Assembly (NCBI GenBank): GCA_013373105.1
Contig: JABXIJ010000004.1
Span: 21,451-85,450, forward strand
Direction of reading: 5' to 3'
Length of the DNA: 64,000 nucleotides
DNA from: Flavobacteriaceae bacterium
GTDB taxonomy: Bacteria; Bacteroidota; Bacteroidia; Flavobacteriales; Flavobacteriaceae
The translations under genes were made by a program, and so were the position numbers. Below are positions 5,658-26,672 of the stretch, in pieces (the first letter of the stretch is position 1; the number at the start of each line of letters is the position of its first letter). The notes beneath the pieces were generated by a model. The model was not told the DNA's origin, ran no database searches, and worked only from the letters and a program-made list of their open reading frames with translations.

Positions 5658-8035
5658 TTTTTAGGTCTCAACACCAATACATTTTCACTTTGTTTAATAT
5701 TTGCCTCATTGAGGCTCATTTTTACAAATTCTCCATCTACATATTTTTGAGCTTGGTCATTGTAATGCTTACTAAACACATTTCCAGATTGTCCCGTAGG
5801 CAAAATAGATAATGAGTTTTCAATATCTGAAAAATCGATTACTCTTCTAGTAGAAGGCCCTGCAGTTATTTTATAAACTCCTGTGCTATCTAGTTTAAAA
5901 ATCTGATTGTTTATTACTTCATTTCCTCCTATTGTTTCAAAAGGACCAACGTTAAAAATTTTACGTAAAATTCCTCCAGTTTTTCCAATAGCATGTTCAT
6001 GCTCTAAAGAAATTACTCTTTTCCAATGCCAAGATTCGATGTTTGCTCCAAGTTGATTCTCTAAAAAAGAAAAAGCTTCTAAAAATGATTTTGTAATAAT
6101 TTCTGTTTTGGTTTCTATTTTATTTTTAGTTAAAACATTATCCCACCAAACAGAATTGGTTCTGTTTACTTGATTAGGCAAAACCTGATCTTGTAATTGC
6201 GAATTGATAAACAAATCAAAACTATCACCAATTTCATCTTTATAAGTATTCTCTAAAAACTCGTATAAAAATCGATTGTAAATAGTTGGAGCAACAGCAT
6301 CTTTACTGTATGTTCCATCCCAAGTTTTTAAGCTAGTTATAGCTTGCTTTTGTGAAAGAGATAACGTTCTTTTATCGATTGAAGCAATCAATTTTTTAGC
6401 AATTTCTGAAACAGTTGCAGACTTAACATCATAAATCATATTAGCAACATCTTCTTTAGTAAAATCATTTTTTGCTTCTAATAATTCCACAATTCTTTTA
6501 GATCTGTCTTTTGGTTGATAATACCCAGGAATTAATTTGCCTCTAACAGAATCTGGTTGATGATTTGCAGAGTACACATATTTTATTTTTGGATTTATTG
6601 CTTGCGGATTTTCATCAAAAGGCAATATCTCTAAAATTTCATCCTTGCCTGATGCTCCATTTAAGTATGTTTTTGTTGAAACACTATCTCTAATTTCATA
6701 CAATTTAGCAGCAGAAAACCAAGCTATATTATCTTTAGCATCACCATACATTACGTTTAATCCTGGGGCATGAATTTTAGATACATGATTCCTAAAATCA
6801 GCTAAAGAAGTAGCATGAGAAATTCCATGAGAAACTGATAACATTTTATTCTCTAATTGTGTGTACAACCAATGCATAGCTATTGGTCTATCATCTTTTA
6901 AATGAAGAATTAACCCATTCATAATTGGCCCATGTTTGCTCACTTTTACTGTAAAAGTTGTATCAGCCTCATCTTTTATTTTAATGGTTTTACTAATTAA
7001 ATCATAAGCTTTATAGCCATTACTAGTTTTGTATTCATTTTCATTATTAGGATTGTTTTCTTCGATATAAAAATTTAAATCATCATTTGCTAGCATAGTT
7101 AATCCATAAGCATAATCTCTGTTATGACCCAGCAATGGAAAAGGCATTAAAGCAATATTATAACCATAAATTTCATAATCTGGAGTTTTTATATGATTTT
7201 GATACCATACAGATGGTTGTGCAAATGCAATATGTGGATCGTTTGCAAACAATACTTTTCCATTTTTGGTTTTTTCTGGAGCAATTACCCAAGAGTTACT
7301 TCCAATAAAAGGTGATACTGGAAGTTTATCAATAAGTGAACTTACAGCATTAGAAAGCTCGGCTTTTATTGGTTGAATATCTGTTTTGTTAATTGTTAAA
7401 TTTTGCTCATAAGCAGACATTAATTCATTAAAATAAGCATCACCTAATTTTTCTTTAATTTCAGTCAACAAAGGATCTGTTTTATGAGCAACTGCAAAAC
7501 TAAAAGACATATAACCAAAAACATTGTAAATGTCTTTTAATGTATATTCTTCTTTTTCTAAACCAACTAAAGTAAATTCTAAGGGTGTTTTTTCATTTTT
7601 TATATATTGATTTACTCCATCTAAATACGCCATACTCATTAGGTAAGCATCAGAATCTTTATCAAGCGCAATAATGGCTTTTTCAGCTGCTTCTTCAATA
7701 CCAAGACCAGCAAAAAAGACATCTGTTTTAAGTAAATCTTTACCAAAAACCTCAGCTAATCTACCTGGAGCAATTCTTCGAATTAATTCCATTTGCCATA
7801 ATCTGTCTTGAGCATGAACGTAACCTAAAGCTACATAAGCGTCTCGTTGATTTTTAGCATTAATATGTGGCACACCATTTTTATCAAAAAACACTGTTAC
7901 TTCATCAGAAATATTTTCTATTTCTAATTCTCCATCGTAATTTGGATAATAGGTTCTAGAATATAACCAACCACCAATAAATATTAAAACTAGAAGAATT
8001 GCAATAAATTTGAGAAGCTTTTTTAGGAAATTCAT
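5654..8035 (-). CDS. Penicillin acylase family (Ntn-hydrolase) protein
   Basis: GSNSWVIAPEKTKNGKVLFANDPH with autocatalytic Ser. The track ORF extends to 8125, but a -7 box at 8056-8063 (-) favours the start at MNFLKK (8035). Confidence 0.9.
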   Translation of the reverse strand: MNFLKKLLKFIAILLVLIFIGGWLYSRTYYPNYDGELEIENISDEVTVFFDKNGVPHINAKNQRDAYVALGYVHAQDRLWQMELIRRIAPGRLAEVFGKDLLKTDVFFAGLGIEEAAEKAIIALDKDSDAYLMSMAYLDGVNQYIKNEKTPLEFTLVGLEKEEYTLKDIYNVFGYMSFSFAVAHKTDPLLTEIKEKLGDAYFNELMSAYEQNLTINKTDIQPIKAELSNAVSSLIDKLPVSPFIGSNSWVIAPEKTKNGKVLFANDPHIAFAQPSVWYQNHIKTPDYEIYGYNIALMPFPLLGHNRDYAYGLTMLANDDLNFYIEENNPNNENEYKTSNGYKAYDLISKTIKIKDEADTTFTVKVSKHGPIMNGLILHLKDDRPIAMHWLYTQLENKMLSVSHGISHATSLADFRNHVSKIHAPGLNVMYGDAKDNIAWFSAAKLYEIRDSVSTKTYLNGASGKDEILEILPFDENPQAINPKIKYVYSANHQPDSVRGKLIPGYYQPKDRSKRIVELLEAKNDFTKEDVANMIYDVKSATVSEIAKKLIASIDKRTLSLSQKQAITSLKTWDGTYSKDAVAPTIYNRFLYEFLENTYKDEIGDSFDLFINSQLQDQVLPNQVNRTNSVWWDNVLTKNKIETKTEIITKSFLEAFSFLENQLGANIESWHWKRVISLEHEHAIGKTGGILRKIFNVGPFETIGGNEVINNQIFKLDSTGVYKITAGPSTRRVIDFSDIENSLSILPTGQSGNVFSKHYNDQAQKYVDGEFVKMSLNEANIKQSENVLVLRPKN

Positions 8036-20583: not shown

Positions 20584-20616
20584 AAAACTCCAACTAAAAA
20601 GTTGGAGTTTTTTTAT
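20584..20616. terminator. Bidirectional terminator between S9 peptidase and umuD
   Basis: AAAACTCCAAC-TAAAAA-GTTGGAGTTTT flanked by A and T runs. Confidence 0.85.
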
Positions 20617-21041
20617 ACTTTCTTAATGACATTTGTTACAATTCCCCAAATAATAAAATCGTTGTCTTCTGTAATTTCTATAACAGAATACGCAGGATTT
20701 TCTGGCTGTAACCAAACCTTACCATTTTCTACTCGTAAACGCTTTACTGTAAATTCGCCATCTAAAAAGCAAACAGCTATTTTATTATTAGCTGGTTCTA
20801 AACTTCTGTCTATAACTAACAAATCGTTATCTTCTAAACCAGCATCAATCATAGATTGTCCTTTAACCCTTGCAAAAAAAGTAGCATCTTTATTTTGTAT
20901 TAACTCATCATCTAAAGAAATTCTAGTTTCTCTAAAATCATCTGCAGGCGATGGAAAACCAGCTGAAATACCAGTATCTATTAAAATAGCTCCCTTACCT
21001 GAAGTTGCTTTTGGTGAAAAAAAAGTGAGATTTTTAGCCAT
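20613..21041 (-). CDS. umuD: UmuD-like S24 self-cleaving protein (translesion polymerase V subunit)
   Basis: ISAGFPSPADDF cleavage region, FARVKGQSMIDAGL Ser, CFLDGEFTVKRL Lys. Confidence 0.92.
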   Translation of the reverse strand: MAKNLTFFSPKATSGKGAILIDTGISAGFPSPADDFRETRISLDDELIQNKDATFFARVKGQSMIDAGLEDNDLLVIDRSLEPANNKIAVCFLDGEFTVKRLRVENGKVWLQPENPAYSVIEITEDNDFIIWGIVTNVIKKV

Positions 21042-22296
21042 TTTTTACAGTAATAATATCGTTAATATTAGTGGTAAATCTTTTCGACAAACGTTCTTGA
21101 CGCATTTTCCAAGTACGTTTTAAATCTTGGTTGCCTAGTTTTATTTTATCTGATTTAAATTTTCTATTCAGCTTATCTATAGCCTGCATTAAAGGTTTGT
21201 GCTTAGGGTTTTCATGAGAAAACAGATTAAGTTGATAGTTATCATTTGGTACTAAACCAGCAACAATAACACCAGCTTTTTTATACTGTATTCCCGATTT
21301 AAAAATAGATTTTACCCCTTCTACTGCAGCTTTAGAAATAGTTAATGTAGAATCTGTTGGAAACGAAAATACCACTGTTTTACTTTCTACATGCTGTGTT
21401 AATTCTTGTTTATGTCTATTGCTTGCAAGTTGTACAATTAACATATGACAGCTAGAATTTTGCTTGCGTAATTTCTCTGCACAACTTGCTGCAAAAGTAG
21501 ATACACGTTCTGTAATGTAGTTAATATCATCATACGTATAATCGAAACTACGTGTTGTAGCAATCATTTTTTTTGATGTTATTTCTTCTAAAGGTATTTT
21601 AGGAATGCCTTGTAAATCTTTCTGTAAACGCCAACCTGTAATGGTTAAGGTTTTAAGCACCCAACTACTTGGTAGCAGAGAAAAATCGTACGCAGTTTTA
21701 CAACCTTTTGCTATTAATTTTTTTTGTGATGCTTTACCTATACCCCAAATTTTGTCTATAGGTGTTGCTTTTAAGAGTGCTATTCTTTTTTCATTAGAAT
21801 CTATAACACAAACTCCTTTAGATTTTACCAAATCTTTTCTTGCCATCTTGTTGGCAACTTTACTTAAGCCTTTGGTTGGTGCAATTCCTACGCAAGTAGG
21901 TATACCTGTCCATTTTAAAATTCTACTTCTAATTTTTATAGCATAATCTTGTAAATCGTAATTTTCAAATCCTTTAAATTGTAAAAAAGATTCATCTATA
22001 GAATATACTTCAACATCAGGAGAAAATTGCGCTAAAATATTCATGACTCTTGCACTCATATCTCCATACAAAGGATAGTTAGATGAAAGTACAGTAATAT
22101 TGTTGTGTTTACAGAATTGGTTCCACTTAAAGATTGGAGCTCCAAAAGGCAAACCTATGGCTTTTGCTTCGTCACTCATAGCAATAACACAACCATCGTT
22201 ATTACTTAAAACAGCAACTGGTTTTCCTTGTAAATTAGGGTTAAAAACCCGTTCACAAGAAGCATAAAAATTATTACAATCTACTAGTGCATACAT
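21034..22296 (-). CDS. umuC: Y-family DNA polymerase UmuC
   Basis: MYALVDCNNFYASCERVFNP, VYSIDESFL; overlaps umuD by 8 nt. Confidence 0.95.
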   Translation of the reverse strand: MYALVDCNNFYASCERVFNPNLQGKPVAVLSNNDGCVIAMSDEAKAIGLPFGAPIFKWNQFCKHNNITVLSSNYPLYGDMSARVMNILAQFSPDVEVYSIDESFLQFKGFENYDLQDYAIKIRSRILKWTGIPTCVGIAPTKGLSKVANKMARKDLVKSKGVCVIDSNEKRIALLKATPIDKIWGIGKASQKKLIAKGCKTAYDFSLLPSSWVLKTLTITGWRLQKDLQGIPKIPLEEITSKKMIATTRSFDYTYDDINYITERVSTFAASCAEKLRKQNSSCHMLIVQLASNRHKQELTQHVESKTVVFSFPTDSTLTISKAAVEGVKSIFKSGIQYKKAGVIVAGLVPNDNYQLNLFSHENPKHKPLMQAIDKLNRKFKSDKIKLGNQDLKRTWKMRQERLSKRFTTNINDIITVKNG

Positions 22297-22379: not shown

Positions 22380-23873
22380 CTAACTTACTTTATGATATGC
22401 TATTTTTAGTTGTTGAACTAGAAAATCTATCTCATTAAAGTCTAAACTACCAAAACCTAAACGAATTGAGCAAGTGTTTGCATCTTGATAAAGGAGTGTT
22501 TTTGGTAAAAATAGGTTATTATTTTCAGCGGCTTTCGCCAATTGAACTAGCGATATTTTAGGTGTAAAGGTTAACCATAAAGCTAAGCCTCCAGAAGGCA
22601 CATTCCAACTTGCAATTTTTTTAAAGTGTTGATTTAGCTTTTTGCATAAATAGTCTCTTCTTTCTCTGTAAATAGTAACACTTTTTTTCATTAAACGATA
22701 TATTTCACCTTCGTTAATGAGTTCAAACAACATTTGTTCTTGAATTAAATCTCCTTGTTTATCAAGTAATTGCAGATAGTTTTTAGCTTCAGAAATTAAG
22801 TTTTGTGGTGCTACTACAAATCCTGTTTGAAAACTCGGAAATAAAGATTGCCCTAGCTTTCCTAAGTAAATTACCATCCCTTTTTCATCTGCTGTAGCTA
22901 GAGGAGGCATTGCATAACCATCGAATTGAAAATCGTAATCGTAATCATCTTCAATAATGGCAAAATTATATTCTCTGGCTAAAGCTAGTAATTTTAATCT
23001 ACGTTCTATGCTTAACATCGCTGTTGTTGGATAATCTCTTTGTGAGTTTACATACACACATCGAATACTTTGCTTGGTAAAGTTTTCTTTAATATAATCT
23101 ACATTTAAACCTTCATGATCTACAGGTATAGTTTTAATATTAGCTCCCACTTGTTGAAAAATCATATTTGCTGCATAATTACTCAAATGCCCAACTATTA
23201 CTACATCCTTGGGTTTTATAAGTAGCTGTGAAACAATATATAAACTCATTTCTGTACTACGTGTATTCACTAAATTTGTTGGGTTTATATGAAACCCTCT
23301 AGTGATATTTAAATAATTACACAACTGATTTTGAAATAATGCATGTGAAACACCTAAAGGATTACTCCATTTTTTAATGAGTGTTTTACGTTTCATAGAT
23401 GAGCTATACCATCTACTAAATTGATGTACAGGATGTAGCCTTAAATCAGGTTTACCTTCATTAATAATCAGTTTTGCGTCTGATGATTCTGATGTAGAAG
23501 ACAAATGAAAAGACTCTTGAAAAGGGAAACCTGTTTCAATTGCATGACTGTAAGGAGTATTTCTGGTCTCTGAAGTCGATTTAATTTTTAAGGATTTATT
23601 ATTGTTTTCTAAAACATAAGTACCTTTATTAGGTATAATCTCTACCCAGCCTTGTGATGCCAATTCATCGTAAATAGCAACAGCGGTATTTCTATGAATT
23701 TGCAATAACTCACTTACTTTTCTGGTTCCAGGCAAAAGAGAACCTTTGTGTAAATAACCACGTTGAATAGCATTAATTATTTGCTGAGAAACCTGAATAT
23801 AAACTGGCTGAGGTTGAGTTTTATCGAAAGTAATAGATTTCTCAAAAAATTTAAAAACCGGACTATGAGACAT
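22380..23873 (-). CDS. MocR-type (GntR wHTH + class I aminotransferase-like) transcriptional regulator with degenerate PLP site
   Basis: N-terminal wHTH (PVYIQVSQQIINAIQRGYLHKGSLLPGTRKVSELLQIHRNTAVAIYDELASQGWV) and AT-like domain (IIEDDYDYDFQFDG, VIYLGKLGQSLFPSFQTGF). Confidence 0.92.
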   Translation of the reverse strand: MSHSPVFKFFEKSITFDKTQPQPVYIQVSQQIINAIQRGYLHKGSLLPGTRKVSELLQIHRNTAVAIYDELASQGWVEIIPNKGTYVLENNNKSLKIKSTSETRNTPYSHAIETGFPFQESFHLSSTSESSDAKLIINEGKPDLRLHPVHQFSRWYSSSMKRKTLIKKWSNPLGVSHALFQNQLCNYLNITRGFHINPTNLVNTRSTEMSLYIVSQLLIKPKDVVIVGHLSNYAANMIFQQVGANIKTIPVDHEGLNVDYIKENFTKQSIRCVYVNSQRDYPTTAMLSIERRLKLLALAREYNFAIIEDDYDYDFQFDGYAMPPLATADEKGMVIYLGKLGQSLFPSFQTGFVVAPQNLISEAKNYLQLLDKQGDLIQEQMLFELINEGEIYRLMKKSVTIYRERRDYLCKKLNQHFKKIASWNVPSGGLALWLTFTPKISLVQLAKAAENNNLFLPKTLLYQDANTCSIRLGFGSLDFNEIDFLVQQLKIAYHKVS

Positions 23874-23902
23874 TTTAATACTGGACTATTTTAATAGTCC
23901 AG
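23860..23902. promoter_or_regulatory. Putative MocR operator: direct GGACTAT repeats plus inverted ATAGTCC
   Basis: GGACTAT at 23860-23866; 10-2-10 perfect inverted repeat CTGGACTATT-TT-AATAGTCCAG at 23881-23902. Confidence 0.75.
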
Positions 23903-23939
23903 AAAGTTAAGAATTTTGCAGCACTTTAAAATAAGACTC

Positions 23940-25757
23940 ATGAAATTAAAATTTACACTTGTTTCAGCTATTTTATGCAGTATTCTTTCTTTAAATGCTC
24001 AAGAAAAAAATGAGATTCAAAAACTAGATACTGTGCTAATAAAATCAACAAGAATAGATGTACCCTTTAAAGAAAGTGCTAGAACTATTCAAATTATAAC
24101 TGCAGAAACTATAAAAAGAAGTGCAGCTACTAATGTTGCAGATTTATTACAGCAAGTTGCTGGTGTAGATATTAGAAGAAGAGGTACAGGTGGTAGCCAA
24201 GCAGATTTATTTATAAGAGGTGGTGGATTCGATCAAACTTTATTGTTAATTGATGGAATTAAAATGGATGACGCTCAAACAGGACATCATACCTTAAATG
24301 CAGCTTTACCTATTGAAGTTATAGAAAGAATTGAGATTGTAAAAGGTCCTGCTGCAAGAATTTTTGGTCAAAATGCATTTACTGGTGCTATTAATATTGT
24401 TACCAAAAAGAAATTAAACAGCACTTTATCAGCAAATGTAGAAGGAGGTTCTTTTGGACAAATTAATGCATCTGCAACATTTGCTAAAGAAACTGAAAAC
24501 AGCACATTTATTGCTCATTTTGGTACTTTAAATTCTGATGGGTATAATACTAATTTAGATTATAAAAATTACAATTATTTCTTTAAAGGAATCTTTAATA
24601 AAAATAAGCAGTCTATAAATGTAATTGCTACTTTCTTCGATAAAAAATTTGGAGCTCAAAATTTTTATACACCACCAAGCTTTGGTTTAAATGAGTATGA
24701 AGAAACACAAAATAGTTTAGTAGCAGTATCTACTACTTTTAGGTCAGAAAACTTTAAAATTACACCAAGAGTATACTGGAGAAGAAGTCAAGATATTTTT
24801 TTATTACAAAGAGATAATCCTGCATTTTACAGAAACTTACACATAACAAATAAAGTGGGTGCAGAAGCAAATGCTTCTTATTCATCAAAATTAGGAGTTA
24901 CTGGTTTTGGATTAGATGTTTCTAGAGTATCAATCAGCAGTAATAATTTAGGAAAAAGAGACAGAATTATGGCTAACTTATTCTTAGAACATCGTTTTAA
25001 AACAGGCCCAATTGATATAACTCCAGGAGTAGCTGTTACTTATTTTTCAGATTTTAAATTCCATGCCTTTCCTGGTTTAGATTTAGGTATGCAACTATCA
25101 GATAAATTAAGGTATTATTGGAATTTTGGTTATACTTATAGAATTCCAACTTACACAGATTTATATTATAACGATAGTTCAACTTCAGGTAATCCAAACT
25201 TACTTCCAGAAGAAGCGATTGCTCAAGAAATGGGTCTTAAATACAGCAATAATAACTTCTTTGCATCTTTTGCGTTATTTACAAGAGCATCAGATAATTT
25301 AATCGATTTTATTAGACCTGATGCAAATACCAATGTATTTATGGCAACTAATATTGCGAAAGTTAATACTCAAGGATTTGAATTTGACGCAAATTATTCT
25401 TTTAAATTCAAAGGATTTAATCAATCTTTAGCAGTTGGATATACTTTCCTAGAAGATGATATCCAAGATCAAAATAGAGATTTATCACGTTATAGCTTAA
25501 ATACATTAAAGCATCATTTTACAACAGGCTTAAGAACTCAATTGTTTAAAAATGTTTCACAGAATATTATTTACAAACATGCAGAACGTATAGATGGGCA
25601 GAGTTACAATGTTTGGGATGCTTCTATTATTGTTAGCTTAAATAAATTAGAGTTTAATTTTACTGCAAATAACATCTTTAATGCAGAATATGTAGAGTCA
25701 GGATTTTTACCTATGCCTTTAAGCAATGTTTTATTTGGTTTACGCTATTCATTTTAA
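23940..25757 (+). CDS. TonB-dependent outer-membrane receptor
   Basis: Plug domain (NVADLLQQVAGVDIRRRGTGGSQADLFIRGGGFDQTLLLIDGIK), barrel, C-terminal aromatic RYSF; start placed at MKLKFTLV. Confidence 0.93.
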   Translation: MKLKFTLVSAILCSILSLNAQEKNEIQKLDTVLIKSTRIDVPFKESARTIQIITAETIKRSAATNVADLLQQVAGVDIRRRGTGGSQADLFIRGGGFDQTLLLIDGIKMDDAQTGHHTLNAALPIEVIERIEIVKGPAARIFGQNAFTGAINIVTKKKLNSTLSANVEGGSFGQINASATFAKETENSTFIAHFGTLNSDGYNTNLDYKNYNYFFKGIFNKNKQSINVIATFFDKKFGAQNFYTPPSFGLNEYEETQNSLVAVSTTFRSENFKITPRVYWRRSQDIFLLQRDNPAFYRNLHITNKVGAEANASYSSKLGVTGFGLDVSRVSISSNNLGKRDRIMANLFLEHRFKTGPIDITPGVAVTYFSDFKFHAFPGLDLGMQLSDKLRYYWNFGYTYRIPTYTDLYYNDSSTSGNPNLLPEEAIAQEMGLKYSNNNFFASFALFTRASDNLIDFIRPDANTNVFMATNIAKVNTQGFEFDANYSFKFKGFNQSLAVGYTFLEDDIQDQNRDLSRYSLNTLKHHFTTGLRTQLFKNVSQNIIYKHAERIDGQSYNVWDASIIVSLNKLEFNFTANNIFNAEYVESGFLPMPLSNVLFGLRYSF

Positions 25758-25814: not shown

Positions 25815-26672
25815 ATGCACATGAGTTTGAATTTATCAGAAATTGATAGGGTAAAAACAATTACCAAAGAAGAATTTTTACAAAACTATTTTAAGCCTCA
25901 AAAACCTGTTGTTATTGAGCGATTTATCGAAGATTGGCCTGCTTTTAAAAAGTGGAACCTAGACTACATGAAAGAAATTGCAGGTGACAAAACAGTTCCT
26001 TTATATGATGACAGACCTGTAGATTATAAAGATGGTTTTAATGAACCTCATGCAACTATGAAAATGTCTGAGTATATAGATTTACTCAAAAAAGAACCTA
26101 CAAAATTTAGAATTTTTTTGTGGAATATTTTAAAAGAAGTTCCAATTTTACAGAAAGACTTTTCCTATCCAGATTTTGGTTTAAAGCTTATGAAAGGTTT
26201 ACCTATGTTGTTTTTTGGTGGTAAAGATTCTTATACTTTTATGCATTATGATATTGATTTAGCTAATATTTTCCACTTTCATTTTCATGGAAAAAAACAA
26301 GTAATTTTATTCGATCAACAACAAAATAAACACCTATACAAAATACCTTTTTCTTTAATTACTAGAGAAGATATAGATTTTGCAAATCCAGATTTCGAAA
26401 AATGGCCAGCATTAAAAAAAGCAAAAGGACATATAGCAAATTTAGAACATGGTAATGTTTTATACATGCCAGAAGGTTATTGGCATTACATGCGATATGT
26501 AACACCTGGCTTTTCTATGAGTTTAAGAGCCATAGCTAGAAATCCAAAGAATTTAGGAAAGGCTATTTATAATGTTTTTATAATGCGCAGTATAGACAAT
26601 CTAATGCGCAGAATCAGAGGGCAAAAATGGATTGATTGGAAAAACAACCAAGCTTTAAAAAACACAATTTAG
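25815..26672 (+). CDS. Cupin-like / JmjC-domain protein
   Basis: TFMHYDIDLANIFHFHFHGKKQVILFD and EHGNVLYMPEGYWHYM. Confidence 0.88.
   Translation: MHMSLNLSEIDRVKTITKEEFLQNYFKPQKPVVIERFIEDWPAFKKWNLDYMKEIAGDKTVPLYDDRPVDYKDGFNEPHATMKMSEYIDLLKKEPTKFRIFLWNILKEVPILQKDFSYPDFGLKLMKGLPMLFFGGKDSYTFMHYDIDLANIFHFHFHGKKQVILFDQQQNKHLYKIPFSLITREDIDFANPDFEKWPALKKAKGHIANLEHGNVLYMPEGYWHYMRYVTPGFSMSLRAIARNPKNLGKAIYNVFIMRSIDNLMRRIRGQKWIDWKNNQALKNTI

Follow-up and report, generated by a model that had tools for sequence, protein, structure and literature searches.

A Flavobacteriaceae clade of MocR regulators, most likely BioL orthologues, has lost the PLP Schiff-base lysine

MocR regulators are described as PLP-dependent, and in a survey of 1331 MocR domains the Schiff-base lysine was reported to be conserved in all clusters (PMC6677901). 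Its loss in laboratory mutants inactivates or locks the three regulators EnuR, MpaR and EmBioL: MpaR K314A is inactive (PMC10790758), EnuR Lys302His is a constitutive repressor (PMC8739950), and EmBioL K340A, like R50A, shows an approximately 4-fold rise in expression and phenocopies the auxotrophy of the deletion (PMC12915131). In Elizabethkingia and Chryseobacterium, bioEFD and bioBA are repressed by BioL, a MocR-family regulator that binds palindromic probes from the promoters of both and whose signal is said to be the intermediate AON (KAPA) (PMC12915131). No natural MocR regulator without the lysine was found in a search of the openly accessible literature.

The gene considered here lies in the window, the whole 64,000-nucleotide stretch of Flavobacteriaceae DNA that was analysed, as a minus-strand open reading frame at positions 22380–23873 whose product of 497 amino acids contains the segment VIYLGKLGQSLFPSFQTGFVV. 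A GntR-type wHTH was recognised at residues 25–87 (PF00392, 34.5 bits against a cut-off of 27), together with an aminotransferase I/II domain of fold type I (PF00155, 35.1 bits against 19.7), and the closest NCBIfam model was that of PdxR (NF052282), at 269.9 bits under its cut-off of 320. An AlphaFold model computed with 56 aligned relatives as input (pLDDT 85.8, pTM 0.74) found its best PDB matches in GabR and PdxR, with a TM of about 0.85–0.88 for the aminotransferase domain, in agreement with a preliminary description of this DNA in which the aminotransferase fold had been taken to be kept. The wHTH, the aminotransferase domain and the counterparts of GabR D279 and Y281 are present and the Schiff-base lysine is absent; the protein is a MocR member by architecture and descent, not a lysine-anchored PLP regulator. 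With the PLP-binding Bacillus regulators GabR and PdxR it has in common the fold, the wHTH, the Asp279/Tyr281 counterparts and DNA sites made up of direct and inverted repeats, but it differs from them in having neither the Schiff-base lysine nor the phosphate arginine, at an identity of about 22–24%. The regulator is followed directly, on its own strand (20613–22296), by UmuD-like and UmuC-like (Y-family polymerase) genes, and this pair is syntenic next to the regulator across many Polaribacter-type loci.

Residue correspondence to GabR and PdxR was obtained with phmmer against PDB chains. The segment aligns gap-free with GabR and with PdxR (VIYLGAFSKSLIPSVRISYMV), which places Q342 at K312 of GabR, Q349 at R319, K339 at T309, D309 at D279 and Y311 at Y281. 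Codon 342 (minus strand, 22848–22850) is CAA and puts Gln at the PLP Schiff-base lysine position (GabR K312, EmBioL K340), and codon 349 (minus strand, 22827–22829) puts a second Gln at the position of the PLP-phosphate arginine (GabR R319). Both replacements had been proposed in the preliminary description from an alignment without gaps, and both were confirmed here. A contig scan of genomes yielded 80 loci, and more genomes were added for the aligned set. Position 342 was Gln in 91 of 92 sequences and His in the remaining one, all of which form one Flavobacteriaceae clade, and in the other 64 aligned MocR proteins it was Lys (56) or Arg (8). Codon usage at this position in the clade was CAA in 63, CAG in 28 and CAC in 1; the codon drifts between CAA and CAG with the residue held, and thus the Gln persists through synonymous change. 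Conservation of the Gln among orthologues beside the TonB receptor had been suggested as a check, and at 91 of 92 it proved to be lineage-fixed. A sporadic mutation or sequencing error at codon 342 was ruled out, the Gln being common to 91 sequences. No replacement Schiff-base lysine was apparent in the pocket among the 92 clade members, in which the sole lysine gained, K339, swaps with Arg. The loss of the Schiff-base lysine is fixed in the clade and, as a matter of chemistry, Gln in its place precludes an internal aldimine. The same lysine is missing from EnuR Lys302His, MpaR K314A and EmBioL K340A, but these are loss-of-function changes in unaltered pockets, whereas the Gln clade is natural, clade-wide and changed in its pocket. 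The lysine-less regulator must sense its signal in a way not known for its family, plausibly through a ligand other than that of the lysine-type MocR proteins.

The origin of the clade was examined in a quick tree with SH-aLRT supports and no bootstraps, computed with the trait columns removed. The Gln/His sequences form a single group (SH-aLRT 100) on a stem of 1.18 changes per column, nested within a 53-row group (support 100) together with lysine-bearing proteins from genus g130, Sphingobacterium and Pedobacter. These lysine-type relatives carry Arg50 and a Lys at 337–342, matching R50 and K340 of EmBioL. A bioF-bioD-bioB-bioA operon stands divergent to the regulator at the lysine-type loci of g130 and also in G311 and G325, with a bioE-like gene ahead of the operon in g130 and G311, not in G325; bioD, bioB and bioA are over their NCBIfam cut-offs, bioF is under its own, and the 207-amino acid bioE-like gene had no family match. 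The group was called BioL on account of this operon layout and the Arg50/Lys numbering, and the window gene is most likely the Flavobacteriaceae BioL orthologue, identified via the tree, operon layout and R50/K340 numbering and not via the EmBioL sequence. Like BioL, it combines MocR architecture, Arg50 and the 340-position numbering, and a biotin context with a predicted palindromic operator between divergent genes, it nests in the bio-operon-adjacent group, and its lysine-bearing relatives adjoin the bioE-like/F/D/B/A operon. Unlike BioL, it has Gln342 where EmBioL has the essential PLP lysine at 340, and Lys/Arg339 and Arg279 in place of Ser and His, and the Gln clade adjoins a TonB receptor (with at most bioB or bioF) and not the synthesis genes bioE-F-D or bioB-A. 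The loss of the lysine is real and conserved, and the window regulator appears to be a lysine-less variant of BioL. The preliminary description had made no mention of BioL, of the likely operator or of a link between the TonB receptor and biotin.

Arg is found at the lysine position in Apibacter (L080), in L146 and in a Flavobacterium-centred group with mixed Lys/Arg, and the lysine was therefore probably lost more than once. The regulator reading frames with Arg at this position, from the BioL group or related to it, are L080, L132, L134, L135, L146, L147, L148 and L151. Close Flavobacterium relatives of the Arg-bearing regulators still have Lys, and the Pedobacter regulators have kept the Lys and lost the phosphate Arg (Ser).

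Replacements in the pocket extend beyond position 342. Substitutions specific to the Gln clade are Ser339 to Lys/Arg, His279 to Arg and Arg349 to Gln/His, together with C276, where relatives have Thr and the window protein itself has Asn, and Y233, where relatives have Phe. Codon 339 (AAG; minus strand, 22857–22859) encodes Lys in place of a Ser/Thr phosphate contact of the relatives and is Lys in 87 and Arg in 5 clade members, and codon 279 (minus strand, 23037–23039) encodes an Arg that is invariant in the clade and His in the lysine-bearing relatives. The Asp of codon 309 (minus strand, 22947–22949), equivalent to the pyridine-nitrogen contact D279 of GabR, is kept in 91 of 92, and position 311, the counterpart of GabR Y281, is Tyr or Phe. 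Codon 471 (minus strand, 22461–22463) encodes an Arg that we take to stand where class I aminotransferases have their carboxylate-binding arginine; R471, D310, G341, S343 and R279 are invariant across the clade. The pocket is better conserved than the domain as a whole (mean entropy 0.42 at its positions versus a domain average of 0.83, permutation p 0.016), and sites with different fixed residues in the two clades are over-represented in it (5 of 27, hypergeometric p 0.006), both p-values being indicative only because the pocket list was picked by the author from published contacts. Three more PLP motifs had been described as altered at the outset. Two of these, TRSTEMS and GxLSxY..NM, occur equally in lysine-bearing BioL relatives and are thus ancestral and not tied to the loss of the lysine; the third stands in part, with TPHHHYPTT in the relatives and the invariant R279 in the Gln clade.

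The 66-bp intergenic region upstream of the regulator carries the 22-bp perfect palindrome CTGGACTATTTTAATAGTCCAG (23881–23902), with the arms CTGGACTA and TAGTCCAG on either side of TTTTAA, and pattern search, shuffles and conservation suggest that it is likely to be the operator. No match to the pattern turned up among 100 shuffles of the window. The window's genome has it nowhere else, other Gln-type genomes usually have it once, and 67 of 68 Gln-type intergenic regions retain it. A third half-site, ACCGGACTA, was located by repeat search in the first codons of the regulator (23857–23865), where it repeats the palindrome arm in direct orientation at 23 nt; its form TAGTCCGG is present in 65 of 68 loci, and the lysine-type loci show a related half-site arrangement. 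The consensus of the Bacteroidota −7 element is TAnnTTTG, to which GAATTTTG (plus strand, 23911–23918) is a 7/8 match, making it by position a possible receptor promoter, and as this element comes after the palindrome, binding of the regulator could block it. A lysine-bearing PdxR-type paralogue (36% identity) was seen in two same-genus genomes (L204:4493–5971, minus strand, with upstream sequence at about 5975–6020, and L206:5116–5146). The half-sites CTGGACTA and CTGGACGATTTAAATAGTCCAT are found upstream of it, and hence both regulators may share DNA specificity; the adjoining small genes look pyridoxamine-oxidase-like. A lysine-type paralogue in G643 passes the PdxR model NF052282 (326.3 bits versus 320).

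On the other side of the palindrome lies the divergent partner of the regulator and its predicted target, a BtuB-like TonB-dependent receptor (plus strand, 23940–25757). Of the 80 loci, 78 have such a receptor divergent to the regulator, and the other two loci end at contig edges. The best named models for the window receptor are of the B12 type and far under their cut-offs, so that its cargo rests on context, which makes it a putative receptor for a vitamin, probably biotin, or for a precursor. Its identity to the receptors beside lysine-type Sphingobacterium regulators is only 31–33%, which does not establish that receptors of different clades are orthologues. A Cupin_8 (JmjC-like) protein (plus strand, 25815–26672), found after the receptor at 25 of the 80 loci, is a possible operon member; in many loci a gene of this kind stands behind the receptor or behind bioB. 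At Gln-type loci bioB comes after the receptor in several species, and bioF does so in five. A lead towards heme receptors, taken from bfpR/hfpR of F. psychrophilum, was dropped, as neither a GntR nor an aminotransferase regulator is named in the paper.

Model searches of the window's genome (2.37 Mb, 99.9% complete by tool estimate) found no bioB, no bioA over cut-off, no BioY and no true bioF, the two matches to the bioF model being a glycine C-acetyltransferase (700.9 bits, TIGR01822) and a serine-palmitoyltransferase/Kbl-like enzyme. The biotin ligase of this genome (243 amino acids) has no BirA HTH, and BirA therefore cannot be its biotin regulator. Neither BCCP (TIGR00531) nor a biotinyl-domain protein was found in this assembly, in which the ligase is present and a gap is possible, so that biotin demand is not shown for the window's genome; a same-genus genome contains a 163-amino acid biotinyl-type protein beside fabH and accC. 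BioY, considered as an inner-membrane partner, was absent from 35 of 35 genomes searched. In 21 Gln-type genomes bioA was over cut-off in 1 and bioB in 6, and bioA and bioB were both present in 10 of 10 sampled g130 lysine-type genomes, an association of bio genes with residue type that is confounded by phylogeny and has exceptions in G107 and G573. G107, of the Gln type, has a cluster of bioB, a ketosynthase-like gene, bioA, bioD and bioF (L207:5700–11328) with no exact BioL half-site, and its biotin synthesis may thus lie outside the regulon; G573, of the lysine type, is without bioA and bioB. The proposal that the lysine was lost because KAPA is no longer made was set aside as too simple in view of these two genomes and the five Gln-type loci with bioF.

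We favour, as reasonably probable, a BioL-type autorepressor of biotin uptake that works without an internal aldimine and binds its effector non-covalently. The regulator would bind the palindrome and the third half-site between itself and the receptor, and when biotin is sufficient the receptor, in some species also bioB or bioF, and the regulator's own gene would be repressed. The reshaped pocket, with K339, R279 and the retained D309 and R471, would bind the effector, most simply biotin, whose carboxylate R471 could hold. Lacking a primary amine, biotin forms no aldimine, so a direct biotin sensor would have no use for a PLP lysine. In this scheme we infer the repression, the cargo of the receptor and the effector, which would be biotin or non-covalent PLP/PMP. 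Against this reading count the receptor's sub-threshold B12-type matches, the missing BCCP, the bioB/A/D/F genes of G107 without an operator, and EmBioL, which is reported to sense AON, not biotin, and loses repression as K340A (PMC12915131). That a whole natural MocR clade gave up PLP, uses the former cofactor pocket to sense biotin directly, or some other biotin compound without an amine, and controls a TonB-dependent biotin receptor is put forward only tentatively, as the less probable, wider claim.

Some of the same pocket changes would suit a PLP-dependent BioL without an internal aldimine, in which PLP or PMP is still used but bound non-covalently, or a preformed PLP adduct of an amine (KAPA, DAPA) is captured, with K339 and R279 replacing the phosphate contacts and D309 holding the pyridine nitrogen. 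D309 and Tyr/Phe311 are kept, positive charge was gained at 339 and 279 while R349 was lost, and with bioF beside the receptor in five loci and bioF/A in G107, KAPA may be made in some of these organisms. However, lysine-bearing MocR proteins lose PLP with the lysine, EnuR Lys302His being colourless (PMC8739950), and the EDDYD segment is invariant family-wide and may be structural; we regard this reading as unlikely. It is more doubtful still that the regulator is blind to ligands, its aminotransferase domain a mere dimerisation scaffold, and acts as a constitutive autorepressor. EnuR Lys302His does dimerise normally and repress constitutively (PMC8739950), but the Gln-clade pocket is more conserved than its domain, with clade-specific fixed replacements and invariant R279 and R471, and a blind repressor of an uptake gene gives no regulation. 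Transfer of the Schiff-base lysine to K339, with PLP still covalent, seems very improbable: K339 is the only newly conserved pocket lysine, but the position is Arg in 5 of 92 sequences, all with Q342. In fold-type-I enzymes, the residue at the 339 position contacts the phosphate, not C4′, which also counts against a shifted lysine.

A naturally fixed and remodelled clade without the lysine indicates that a cofactor-dependent sensor can be rebuilt, and nature offers Lys, Arg and Gln forms of a single regulator with which to test how. Were the autorepressor to sense biotin directly, it would be an aminotransferase-fold biotin sensor; BirA, BioR and BioQ likewise control biotin acquisition genes, but their sensor domains are unrelated to that of this regulator. 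For marine flavobacteria that neither make biotin nor have BioY, the TonB-dependent receptor is a candidate for the uptake of biotin or its precursors, a point of interest for the exchange of vitamins in the sea. In G573 a DUF5690 transporter-like gene (PF18943, 512 bits) has a perfect palindrome, CCGGACTATTTCTATAGTCCGG (L205:4828–4849), just upstream and is a candidate for an inner-membrane transporter of biotin.
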